A DNA stretch of 48,390 nucleotides from Chryseobacterium gleum (lineage in GTDB: Bacteria; Bacteroidota; Bacteroidia; UBA10329): positions 1 through 48,390 of the forward strand of contig CAMDOM010000020.1 of the NCBI GenBank assembly GCA_945903645.1. The letters are read 5' to 3'. Made by a program: the position numbers and the translations under genes. Shown here piece after piece: positions 6,595-17,160 of the stretch. The notes under the pieces were generated by a model. That model ran no database searches and was not told the origin of the DNA. It saw only the letters and a program-made list of their open reading frames with translations. Numbering within the stretch: position 1 is the first letter of the stretch; the number at the start of each line of letters is the position of its first letter.

Positions 6595-7899
6595 ATGAAA
6601 CACATATACTTCCTCTTGGTGCTGTTCGCCACCACGCTTGCCACCGCCCAATCACTCTACTTTCCGCCTATAGTTGGCAACGCTTGGGAAACCACCACGC
6701 CCGAAGAGCTGGGCTGGTGCCCCGAAAAGGTGGACACCCTGCTCGACTATTTGGACGCCAAAAACACCAAAGCATTCATTTTGCTCAAAGACGGGCGTAT
6801 CGTCATTGAGCAGTATTTCGGTACTTTCACTCAAGACAGCGCATGGTATTGGGCCTCGGCTGGCAAAACCATCACTTCCTTTATGGTGGGCATTGCGCAG
6901 CAAGAAGGCCATCTCTCCATAGCCGACACCACCTCCGATTATCTCGGCACAGGCTGGACCAGCTGCACCTCTCAAGAGGAGGAGAAAATCACCATTCGCC
7001 ACCAACTTAGCATGACCAGCGGCCTTGATGATGATGTGCCCGACCACTTTTGCACCCTCGCCTCGTGCCTCCTCTGCATTGCCAATCCAGGCACCCGCTG
7101 GGCCTACCACAACGGTCCCTATACCCTGCTTGACGGGGTGATTGAGGCGGCCTCCGGCCAAACCCTTAACACCTACACCACCCAAAAACTGAAAACCCCA
7201 ACAGGAATGACGGGGGCGTTTTTTTCATCGGGCTACAATAATGTGTTCTTTAGCAAACCCCGAAGTATGGCCCGTTTTGGTCTATTGATGCTTAATAACG
7301 GAAACTGGAACGGAAACCAAATAATGACCGATGCCACTTATTTCAACGCCATGGTAAATACCTCGCAATCGCTCAACCTGAGCTACGGCTACTTATGGTG
7401 GCTCAACGGCAAGGCCACAGCCATGCTGCCCGGCTCACAATTTCAGTTTGCAGGTCCGCTAAACCCCAACGCACCCGATGATATGTATGCGGCATTGGGC
7501 AAAGACGGGCAGATCATCAACGTGGTGCCCAGCCTCAATCTGGTATACATCCGCATGGGTAATGCCCCCGGAGTGGGCGAAGTGCCCATCACTTTCAACG
7601 ACACCATCTGGCAGCGGGTAAACGATCTGATGTGCAGTTCTGTTGGGGTAAATGATGCGGATGTTGCCCAAGAAATTCGCATCTATCCGAACCCAGGCAG
7701 CGGAGAATTCAACCTTTCTATCCCCTCAACTATTGAGGTAATGGACATGTATGGAAGAATACTACTAGGCCCCATGCGCACCAGCACCATCAACCTAAGC
7801 GCCCATAGTGATGGGGTTTATTTGGTACGGATAACGGAGGATGGGCTGCCGAGAATTGAGCGAGTGCTCAAGGCATCTTCTTCCATTTTCACCCCTTAA
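6595..7899 (+). CDS. Secreted serine hydrolase (beta-lactamase/class C family) with T9SS sorting domain
   Basis: A secreted hydrolase of the beta-lactamase-related family (class C, esterase or D-Ala-D-Ala peptidase type). Residues 1-19 are a signal peptide ending ATAQS. The nucleophile motif SxxK is Ser88-Ala-Gly-Lys91 and the YxN motif is Tyr171-His-Asn173. The last 75 residues begin with IYPNPGSGEFNLS and continue through VMDMYGRIL and GVYLVRI, a typical type A C-terminal sorting domain for the type IX secretion system. The product should therefore reach the cell surface or medium. The first 600 bases are visibly richer in C and G, with many C-ending codons (ACC, GCC), than the neighbours, which hints at separate origin. 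Substrate cannot be told. Confidence 0.85.
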   Translation: MKHIYFLLVLFATTLATAQSLYFPPIVGNAWETTTPEELGWCPEKVDTLLDYLDAKNTKAFILLKDGRIVIEQYFGTFTQDSAWYWASAGKTITSFMVGIAQQEGHLSIADTTSDYLGTGWTSCTSQEEEKITIRHQLSMTSGLDDDVPDHFCTLASCLLCIANPGTRWAYHNGPYTLLDGVIEAASGQTLNTYTTQKLKTPTGMTGAFFSSGYNNVFFSKPRSMARFGLLMLNNGNWNGNQIMTDATYFNAMVNTSQSLNLSYGYLWWLNGKATAMLPGSQFQFAGPLNPNAPDDMYAALGKDGQIINVVPSLNLVYIRMGNAPGVGEVPITFNDTIWQRVNDLMCSSVGVNDADVAQEIRIYPNPGSGEFNLSIPSTIEVMDMYGRILLGPMRTSTINLSAHSDGVYLVRITEDGLPRIERVLKASSSIFTP

Positions 7900-12003: not shown

Positions 12004-12096
12004 CGGGGCAAATGCCCAACCCACTATCCTTCGTGGCATAGACAACGGGGCATATGCCTAGTCCACTATCCTTCATGGCATAGGCAACGGGGCAAA
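12004..12096. repeat. 42-base tandem repeat, two full copies and a partial third
   Basis: Copies begin at 12004, 12046 and 12088, each starting CGGGGCA. The two full copies differ at about 6 of 42 positions. Each contains an ATGCC element and a GGCATA element that can pair, and the second holds the palindrome GGCATATGCC. It lies just after the uvrA stop and just before the convergent end of the small cysteine-rich gene, so it may fold as a bidirectional transcript end. Confidence 0.85.
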
Positions 12097-12100
12097 AATT

Positions 12101-12352
12101 CTACTCACAAAGGCAGGCTTCGCATTCGGCTTGGGTAGCAAACCCGTATTGCGAACATCCCGAATAGCCTATTGAGTCGCAGGCATTGCTCTCTGCATTG
12201 TAGAACCAGCGCTGGAAATATGCCAAGCAAGCTTCATCCGTTGGAGGTATGTCTTGGCAGGTGGCTGGGGTTTCGTCCGTGCAATCGTTTGCGCAGCACA
12301 TCAAAGTGGTGAAAGCGAAGGCGAGTAAGAGCAGGGGTAGTACGGTTTTCAT
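12101..12352 (-). CDS. Small secreted cysteine-rich protein with Kunitz/BPTI-like domain
   Basis: An 83-residue protein with a hydrophobic signal (MKTVLPLLLLAFAFTTLMCC). It may be lipid-anchored at Cys19 or Cys20, though the lipobox is not canonical. The mature part has cysteines at 32, 42, 58, 66, 77, 80 and 82. The spacing C42-15-C58-7-C66 is identical to that of bovine pancreatic trypsin inhibitor (C14-15-C30-7-C38). RWFYN sits where BPTI has RYFYN, YSGC where it has YGGC, and FATQAEC matches the F-x-[ST]-x-x-x-C end. By this alignment the P1 residue would be Leu43. The segment between C66 and C77 is two residues shorter than in BPTI and Gly12 of BPTI is not kept, so inhibition is an inference. 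It starts 9 bases after ftcD on the same strand. Confidence 0.65.
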   Translation of the reverse strand: MKTVLPLLLLAFAFTTLMCCANDCTDETPATCQDIPPTDEACLAYFQRWFYNAESNACDSIGYSGCSQYGFATQAECEACLCE

Positions 12353-12361
12353 CTCGTGGGT

Positions 12362-14053
12362 TTATAGTTTGTCTTCCACAATTGTCAAAATCTCTTTTTC
12401 AAGCGCAATGGCCTCATGTTCTAGTTGCTGGGCTTTTGAAAGTATATCCTCCAAGAAAGCCTTGTCGTGCAATCCGCCAGCATTGATGCGCACATTGAGG
12501 TGGGCGCCCATCACAGCCGAACGAGCACATAAGGCCCCGACACCAGCATCGCTCACCGAGTTGGGATTGCCCACTTCGGCCATAGCTTTAAGGTTAGACA
12601 TGCTGGCATGAGCTACCTGCATCACCTTGAACGGGATTAAAATGGCTTGCTTAGTAGCATCCTGAATTGCAGCGGTTCGGATGGCCTTTTCTGCATCCTT
12701 GGCCTTCGGCAAACCAAAAGCTGCCATAATACCGTTGAACGCGGCCGTGTCTTCATCCACCAAGCGCAACAGCTCTTCTTTCATGGCTTGTCCGTGTTCG
12801 GCATGGTCGCTAAACTCTTCCCAGCGTTCGTCCCAGCCGCGCTTGTGCGAGCTTAGATTGGCCACCATAGTGCCCAACGAAATGCCCAGCGCACCAACAT
12901 ACGCAGCAATGCTGCCACCACCTGGGGCAGGGCTTTCGCTGGCGGTTTCATCGGCAAAAGCTGTAAGACTCATGTCTACCAATCGCTTGCTGGCATCATC
13001 GGCAATCATGTATTCAATAATGCGCTGCTTTGGGTCGAAGGGAGTAAGTTCATCTAAGCCAAGGCTGCGAATGGCAATTTTTATCAGCTCGCTCTCACTT
13101 ACACCCACCGAGCGTTGCTGTTTTTTGAGGAAAAACCGACCCGCGTCTAGCATGGCTTCTAGCGGCACTAGGCCAACCAGTTCAGAGCCTGTAACCCGCA
13201 ATCCACGCTCCCAAGCTTTGTTACAAGCAGTGTCGAATGCCACATGCATGGGGGTAACGGTGATGTTGGTCAAATTGAGCGACACTTGAGCAATTCCGTA
13301 TTCCTCAATAAACCACCCAATACCTTTCACGGCTTTCAGCGCCCCAGGTTCGCGAATGGGGTTGCCATTGGCGTCTTTCACTTCCTTGCCTGTCACGGGG
13401 TCGCCTTCGCGCAGCACCCGTCCGTTTTCGCGCAAGTCGAAAGCCAAATTGTTGGCGCGCCTCACCGAAGTGGTGTTTAGGTTAATGTTATAGGCAATCA
13501 GAAAATCGCGGGCCGATATGGCGATGGCACCAGTACTTTTTACGCTATCGGTGAATGTTGCATCGCCAAAATCGGGTTTCCATGCAGGGTCAGTTAACTT
13601 CTTGGGCAATCCTTCATATTCGCCTGCTCGGCAATTGGCAAGGTTTCTACGTTTTTCTTCGGTGCAGGAATATTCATAGAAATAGCCAGGAATGCCCAAC
13701 TCTTTACCAACTCGTTCGCCCAGTTTGTGGGCATAAGGCACCACATCTTCCATACTAATGTTGGCAATGGGAATAAGCGGACACACATCTGTAGCACCAA
13801 AGCGAGGATGCTCTCCCTGATGCTTGCTCATGTCAATCAATTCAGCGGCCTTTTTTATGAGAAGAAATGCCGCTTCGATTACCGCATCTGGCTCACCCAC
13901 AAAGGTGATTACCGTCCGATTGGTGGCCGCACCTGGATCCACATTCAGCAATTTGATGCCCTCAACGGTGGTAACTACATTCGCAATGGCGTTAATTTTT
14001 ACTAGGTCGCGACCTTCCGAAATGTTCGGTACACACTCTATAAGTTGTTTCAT
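12362..14053 (-). CDS. ftcD: Glutamate formimidoyltransferase / formimidoyl-THF cyclodeaminase fusion
   Basis: The last step of histidine degradation: transfers the formimino group from formiminoglutamate to tetrahydrofolate, then releases ammonia to give methenyl-THF. The 563 residues hold both enzymes in one chain, as in the mammalian FTCD. The N-terminal transferase covers about 1-330 (ECVPNISEGRD at the start, HQGEHPRFGATDVCPLIP in the middle). The C-terminal cyclodeaminase covers about 365-560 (ESPAPGGGSIAAYVGALG and HASMSNLKAMAEVGN). No hutH, hutU or hutI lies nearby, so the gene is separated from the rest of the pathway. A near-consensus promoter box, TATACTTG, lies upstream on the minus strand (14101-14108). 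Confidence 0.95.
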   Translation of the reverse strand: MKQLIECVPNISEGRDLVKINAIANVVTTVEGIKLLNVDPGAATNRTVITFVGEPDAVIEAAFLLIKKAAELIDMSKHQGEHPRFGATDVCPLIPIANISMEDVVPYAHKLGERVGKELGIPGYFYEYSCTEEKRRNLANCRAGEYEGLPKKLTDPAWKPDFGDATFTDSVKSTGAIAISARDFLIAYNINLNTTSVRRANNLAFDLRENGRVLREGDPVTGKEVKDANGNPIREPGALKAVKGIGWFIEEYGIAQVSLNLTNITVTPMHVAFDTACNKAWERGLRVTGSELVGLVPLEAMLDAGRFFLKKQQRSVGVSESELIKIAIRSLGLDELTPFDPKQRIIEYMIADDASKRLVDMSLTAFADETASESPAPGGGSIAAYVGALGISLGTMVANLSSHKRGWDERWEEFSDHAEHGQAMKEELLRLVDEDTAAFNGIMAAFGLPKAKDAEKAIRTAAIQDATKQAILIPFKVMQVAHASMSNLKAMAEVGNPNSVSDAGVGALCARSAVMGAHLNVRINAGGLHDKAFLEDILSKAQQLEHEAIALEKEILTIVEDKL

Positions 14054-16834: not shown

Positions 16835-17160
16835 AACCTGAGTTCGAGTTAAGCCACTAAGCATAGTTGAGTTTCGATAGCTTGAATAAGCTTTGGATTG
16901 GTTTCTTGAAACAAAGGCTTAATAGAGGGTTTTTGATCGGCAAAAGAATAAGTGGCTATTGCAATCATGAGGTTGAGTAGGTATCCAGATATGGATTGAT
17001 GCCTGGTATGTTCGGCCTGAAAGATGTTCTTGAGTTGGTTATTGACCGTTTCAATGACCGACCGTTTGCGCAGTAAGATTCGCTCCTCATTGCTCAATGC
17101 TACCGTCTTCATGTTGCGTCTCACTTGTGTGATGAGCTGTAACGATGGATGTATTCAGAT
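16835..17160 (-). pseudogene. IS982-family transposase remnant (C-terminal end with terminal repeat)
   Basis: Reading the minus strand, sense from about 17160 to the stop at 16849 gives LQLITQVRRNMK, then RSVIETVNNQLKN, EHTRHQSISGYLLNLM and a short tail. This is the C-terminal third of an IS982-type DDE transposase. An in-frame stop lies upstream of LQLITQ and the rest of the gene is gone. The outer end AACCTGAGTTCGAGTTAAG at 16835-16853 is nearly identical to the end of the second element at 48244. It matches the position of an IS terminal inverted repeat. The other end is missing, so the element is dead. Confidence 0.8.

Follow-up and report, generated by a model that had tools for sequence, protein, structure and literature searches.

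A lipoprotein-type Kunitz-domain family in Bacteroidota as candidate membrane-anchored protease inhibitors

Accounts of Kunitz inhibitors usually treat them as a device of animals, known from venoms, saliva and blood clotting. The Kunitz/BPTI family (Pfam PF00014, MEROPS I2) includes BPTI, APPI, bikunin, boophilin, TFPI and SmCI, and the cysteine frame of BPTI is 8-15-7-12-3 (numbers of residues between successive cysteines). The open literature searched contains a single clear account of Kunitz domains in a bacterium: an anticoagulant protein with five such domains, reported from an assembly of Acinetobacter baumannii (F6W77); as recombinant proteins, its Kunitz domains inhibit factors XIa and Xa (PMC11511053). 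No paper on a Bacteroidota Kunitz family was found in the open literature, which is weak evidence of absence, as most subscription journals were outside the scope of the search.

The gene described here lies in a stretch of 48,390 nucleotides, which was analysed as a whole and is called the window below. The open reading frame (ORF) that the preliminary description had placed at 12101-12352 is real. It runs on the minus strand (12352→12101) from an ATG start and encodes a protein of 83 aa (MKTVLPLLLLAFAFTTLMCCANDCTDETPATCQDIPPTDEACLAYFQRWFYNAESNACDSIGYSGCSQYGFATQAECEACLCE); the plus-strand reading of the same interval is interrupted by stops. The upstream neighbour on the same strand is ftcD (12362..14053), encoding formiminotransferase-cyclodeaminase. 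Its identity is backed by Pfam, and the gap from the ftcD stop to the Kunitz ATG is 9 bases, as had been noted. The genes around it on this contig are bacterial: uvrA, ftcD and hisH/hisF-like genes. The interval between uvrA and the Kunitz gene is largely taken up by a pair of 42-base direct repeats that are 86% alike (12004-12087). A transposase remnant, a 91-aa ORF on the minus strand (16849-17124) that covers only the last 45 positions of DDE_Tnp_1_3, lies a few kb from the Kunitz gene, and positions 6595-7899 encode a protein that combines a beta-lactamase fold with a C-terminal sorting domain for type IX secretion. An operon link between the Kunitz gene and ftcD is unsupported: the neighbourhood is repeated at no relative locus, and in the stretches fetched from genus mates ftcD is not trailed by a Kunitz gene or by uvrA. 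Carriage by a phage or plasmid was also rejected, with no match in the phage collection, the plasmid collection or the viral contigs.

The window protein carries a true Kunitz domain. PF00014 matched residues 32-79 (12116-12259) with 27.6 bits (E 3.3e-6), above the curated Pfam cut-off of 21 bits, so the profile search suggested in the preliminary description gave a positive answer. When the protein was compared with all PDB chains by phmmer, the listed matches were Kunitz proteins or chains containing Kunitz domains, boophilin being the best (E 1.6e-9). To ask whether the Kunitz match rests on the cysteines alone, we held every cysteine in place, shuffled the other residues, and scored the products with a profile of ten animal domains. 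Seven of these domains were taken from alignments, with one or two residues completed where they had been cut, and the other three were BPTI, APPI and collagen VI alpha-3. None of 20,000 shuffles reached the real score of 28.4 bits, the best of them scoring 14.9. All members of the wider alignment (32/32) match PF00014; no model in NCBIfam matches the window protein. The details on which a Kunitz/BPTI-like framework had first been proposed hold as well: the spacing C42-15-C58-7-C66 is as described, R48-W49-F50-Y51-N52 aligns with R20-Y21-F22-Y23-N24 of BPTI, and Y63-S-G-C66 aligns with Y35-G-G-C38.

The ten closest sequences served as input for an AlphaFold2 model. Its mean pLDDT was 69.8 (medium confidence), with about 80-86 over residues 41-80. 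As anticipated in the preliminary description, a beta hairpin (46-52/57-63) and a C-terminal helix (74-81) were modelled, along with a helix over residues 4-18 of the signal segment, and Kunitz structures took the top ranks: the top Foldseek matches in the PDB were all Kunitz (best E 0.013, probability 0.94-1.00). Re-aligned on BPTI with VIA-align, the model gave Z 4.7 and an rmsd of 1.6 over 40 residues; a Z this low is not sufficient by itself, and it agrees with the sequence result. Modelled by itself, the mature part gave a poor result (pLDDT 51), which was set aside.

A scan of bacterial and archaeal genomes recovered nine loci with 48-60% identity, all in Bacteroidota-type records and including the isolates Taibaiella sp. 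KBW10 and Portibacter marinus. The bacterial Kunitz protein with a signal noted earlier is thus one of a Bacteroidota family. Its distribution is patchy: the family profile matches 30 of the 395 sampled genomes of the class, in 19 of 197 genera, and within the window's genus the gene is present in one of nine genomes, the window's own (some of the others are incomplete). PF00014 had no match in fourteen well-known control genomes. Members fall into two subfamilies. Subfamily A (30 sequences, including the window) has the frame C-9-C-15-C-7-C-10-C-2-C in 27/30, and subfamily B (eight sequences: L010, L017, L018, L043, L044, L046, L048 and L049) has C-8-C-15-C-7-C-11-C-2-C in 7/8. Subfamily B retains motifs of the GPC type and GGC, and its link to animal domains is readily made (2e-35 for its profile against SmCI). 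In L018, a 177-aa ORF on the minus strand has its Kunitz domain behind a cysteine-containing N-terminal region without a Pfam match. One further subfamily B copy (L020/L064/L069; G234:C12:366610-366833) is split by a frame change and is apparently a decaying gene. The candidate L068 was discarded as a chance match, a short stretch inside a 420-aa frame without the cysteine frame.

In several lineages, a small lipoprotein gene of the DUF6970 family (PF22311) adjoins or neighbours the Kunitz gene (L006:4537-4935; L012:1003-1365; L038:1746-2093; L039; L007:7793-8209). The two families co-occur in 8/395 genomes, where about 3.3 would be expected (Fisher p 0.011); in three of these eight (G082, G582 and G709) the genes are adjacent. 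No convincing solved relative of DUF6970 was found, and it may be a functional partner of the Kunitz lipoprotein.

In nearly all aligned members the N-terminus is a hydrophobic stretch that runs up to a lipobox cysteine. The signal peptide proposed earlier for the window protein is present (residues 1-20, 12293..12352, minus strand), but it is of the lipoprotein type and, by comparison with the relatives, ends at a putative acylated Cys20 (TLMC-C20). The lipobox LMCC is weaker than that of the relatives, with C19 at position −1 where they have S, A or G. From this alignment, Cys20 is probably acylated and the protein anchored in a membrane. The Kunitz domain follows at residues 32-83 (12104..12259, minus strand), with C32, C42, C58, C66, C77 and C80. 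The BPTI frame claimed for it stands in part: the 15 and 7 spacings match, but there are 9 residues rather than 8 between C32 and C42, 10 rather than 12 between C66 and C77, and 2 rather than 3 between C77 and C80. These six cysteine positions are present in 38/38 bacterial members collected, as the search pattern required. Two extra cysteines lie outside them, Cys24 (12281..12283, minus strand) and Cys82 (12107..12109, minus strand). All members of subfamily A collected have a cysteine about three residues past the lipobox cysteine and another two past C80. In subfamily B, L010, L043 and L044 have both equivalents and L017, L018, L048 and L049 have neither, L046 being the sole exception. We read this joint presence and absence, in members whose counts are not independent, as pointing to a fourth disulfide, C24-C82, which would tie the tether to the tail.

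The predicted reactive-site loop is E40-A41-C42-L43(P1)-A44-Y45-F46 (12215..12235, minus strand), aligned to BPTI G12-I18. The P1 of Leu43 given in the preliminary description follows from this alignment, but Leu is not the residue of most relatives: P1 in subfamily A (n=30) is Q in 18, L in 4, D in 2, A in 2, and M, K, T and N in one each. It is mostly Glu in subfamily B. Gln and Glu are unusual at P1, and suit trypsin, chymotrypsin or elastase poorly. Around P1, subfamily A is nearly fixed, with Ala at P1' (28/30), an aromatic residue at P3' (29/30), Tyr35 fixed and Gly37 in 30/30. Its loop has one residue inserted before the second cysteine (C42 in the window). The Gly12 position is mostly Glu (Glu40 in the window, invariant in A1) and the Gly36 position of BPTI mostly Ser, as in the window. 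Of the three glycines that are conserved around the reactive loop of Kunitz-type inhibitors (Gly12, Gly36 and Gly37), subfamily A retains Gly37 alone and subfamily B retains all three.

Tandem copies show how P1 changes at a single locus. The Taibaiella locus (L006) has three, whose P1 residues are L, Q and K. Between copies 1 and 2 dN is 0.04 and dS 0.47, which indicates purifying selection. Of the five changes between their mature proteins three affect P3, P1 and the BPTI-36 position, an enrichment at contact positions that is suggestive only (p about 0.08). At another locus (L007), both of two tandem copies have Asp at P1. A fixed core with a changing P1 under purifying selection is the pattern of inhibitors facing changing proteases.

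From the homology, the Kunitz profile and fold match, the lipobox of the relatives, the frame, the P1 variation and the purifying selection, we consider it rather likely that the window protein is a membrane-anchored canonical-type serine protease inhibitor, more probably acting against foreign proteases. It would be a small outer-membrane or periplasmic lipoprotein consisting of one Kunitz domain and a very short tether. Once Cys20 is processed, some ten residues would separate the domain from the membrane. The predicted disulfides C32-C80, C42-C66 and C58-C77 would close the domain, with C24-C82 joining the tether to the tail. In canonical ("standard mechanism") inhibition, a serine protease of the trypsin fold would be blocked by the P1 loop (Leu43) entering its active site, and P1 would be altered among species and tandem copies to suit different proteases. 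The targets would more likely belong to other microbes, grazers or hosts than to the cell itself.

Inhibition is open to real doubt on account of the lengthened loop, the lost Gly12 and a P1 rich in Gln and Glu. With the changed loop length, the loss of Gly36 as well, and no protease gene recurring in the flanks compared, the protein might have stopped inhibiting and become a stable binding or structural module, such as an adhesion, receptor or envelope factor; some animal Kunitz proteins act on targets other than proteases. We hold this to be unlikely, though a serious competitor, because P1 varies whereas P1' and the surrounding core are fixed, and because the tandem copies differ at P1, P3 and the BPTI-36 position. 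If the protein does inhibit, it could instead act in the periplasm as a regulator of proteases in the cell's own envelope (DegP/HtrA-like, or dipeptidyl peptidases of the trypsin fold). PF00089 matches occur in 59/59 genomes tested, Kunitz carriers and non-carriers; they are mostly partial, in frames of about 350-600 aa, and the top ones are HtrA-like proteases of about 500 aa. In the window's genome there are three, two of which lie in frames of more than 900 aa and the third in one of HtrA-like length. Yet such proteases are everywhere we tested and the Kunitz gene is patchy (30/395; 1/9 in the genus), and regulation of own proteases seems improbable to us. In the carriers, PF00089 matches are only partial and mostly of HtrA-like length, and the two strongest matches, which score 205 and 154 bits and may be true trypsins, come from genomes that lack the Kunitz gene. 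No partner protease was identified among the 59 genomes and the flanks compared, where no neighbour gene is common to the family. Since there is no shared neighbour and the strongest PF00089 matches are in Kunitz-negative genomes, foreign proteases are by elimination the likelier target of the proposed inhibitor.

Kunitz domains are mainly known from animals, and the gene might for that reason be taken for contaminating animal DNA or an assembly artefact. However, its flanks on one contig are bacterial (uvrA, ftcD, hisH/hisF-like genes), it has a lipobox and no intron, its relatives are spread over many bacterial genomes, some of them in a single contig (G222, for example), and the bacterial clade is separate from the animal sequences. 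On genomic context and bacterial relatives, we rejected a stray animal gene, and the chance of such an origin is negligible. In a tree of 50 columns, subfamily A (100/99) and subfamily B (97/93) each formed a clade apart from the ten animal domains. Trees with and without A and B grouped were equal (p-AU 0.52), 50 columns being too few to speak for or against a single origin. The shortened C5-x2-C6, found in both subfamilies and absent from the animal sequences compared, is one character that speaks for a common origin of A and B. Sampling for this question was confined to Bacteroidota, and any transfer could have run from animals to bacteria or the other way. More tentatively, and with doubts that outweigh our confidence, we propose a long-standing Bacteroidota lineage of Kunitz inhibitors that carry a lipid anchor, a fourth disulfide and a loop of altered shape. 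Tandem duplication would have diversified them at P1, and they would have spread between families. These inhibitors would shield cells from foreign proteases, and the lineage would possibly pre-date, or be independent of, the recent animal radiation.

If these readings are true, bacteria would gain a class of canonical inhibitors that the literature searched seldom discusses, in the form of a coherent lipid-anchored family present in metagenome-assembled genomes and named isolates (Taibaiella, Portibacter). Its members would be unusual as scaffolds, with one disulfide more predicted, and the timing and direction of domain movement between animals and bacteria would become testable. PF00014 matches all members, so annotation pipelines may well label them already.

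Compared with the Kunitz/BPTI family, the window protein shares the profile, the C2-15-C3-7-C4 spacing, the R-[WY]-F-Y-N and Y-x-G-C motifs, and the hairpin with the C-terminal helix. It differs in its 9/10/2 spacing at C1-C2, C4-C5 and C5-C6 instead of 8/12/3, in two extra cysteines and a lipoprotein signal, in a P1 that is mostly Gln in its family, and in having no Gly12, Gly36 or Asn43. Subfamily B resembles it in the Kunitz domain, in a signal with lipobox in most members, and in C5-x2-C6 (7/8), but has GPC and GGC loops, keeps Phe33, shows 8/11 spacing and a P1 of mostly Glu, in some members is without the extra cysteine pair, and is clearly nearer the animal sequences. The A. baumannii F6W77 protein is alike in that its Kunitz domains were reported in a bacterial assembly; it has five classical six-cysteine domains (P1 Arg in KABP1) and a plain signal peptide with no lipid anchor reported (PMC11511053), whereas the window protein has a single domain with P1 Leu and a lipoprotein-type signal. 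Given this bacterial precedent, what the window protein adds is a variant, new in its family, its probable anchoring and its frame.
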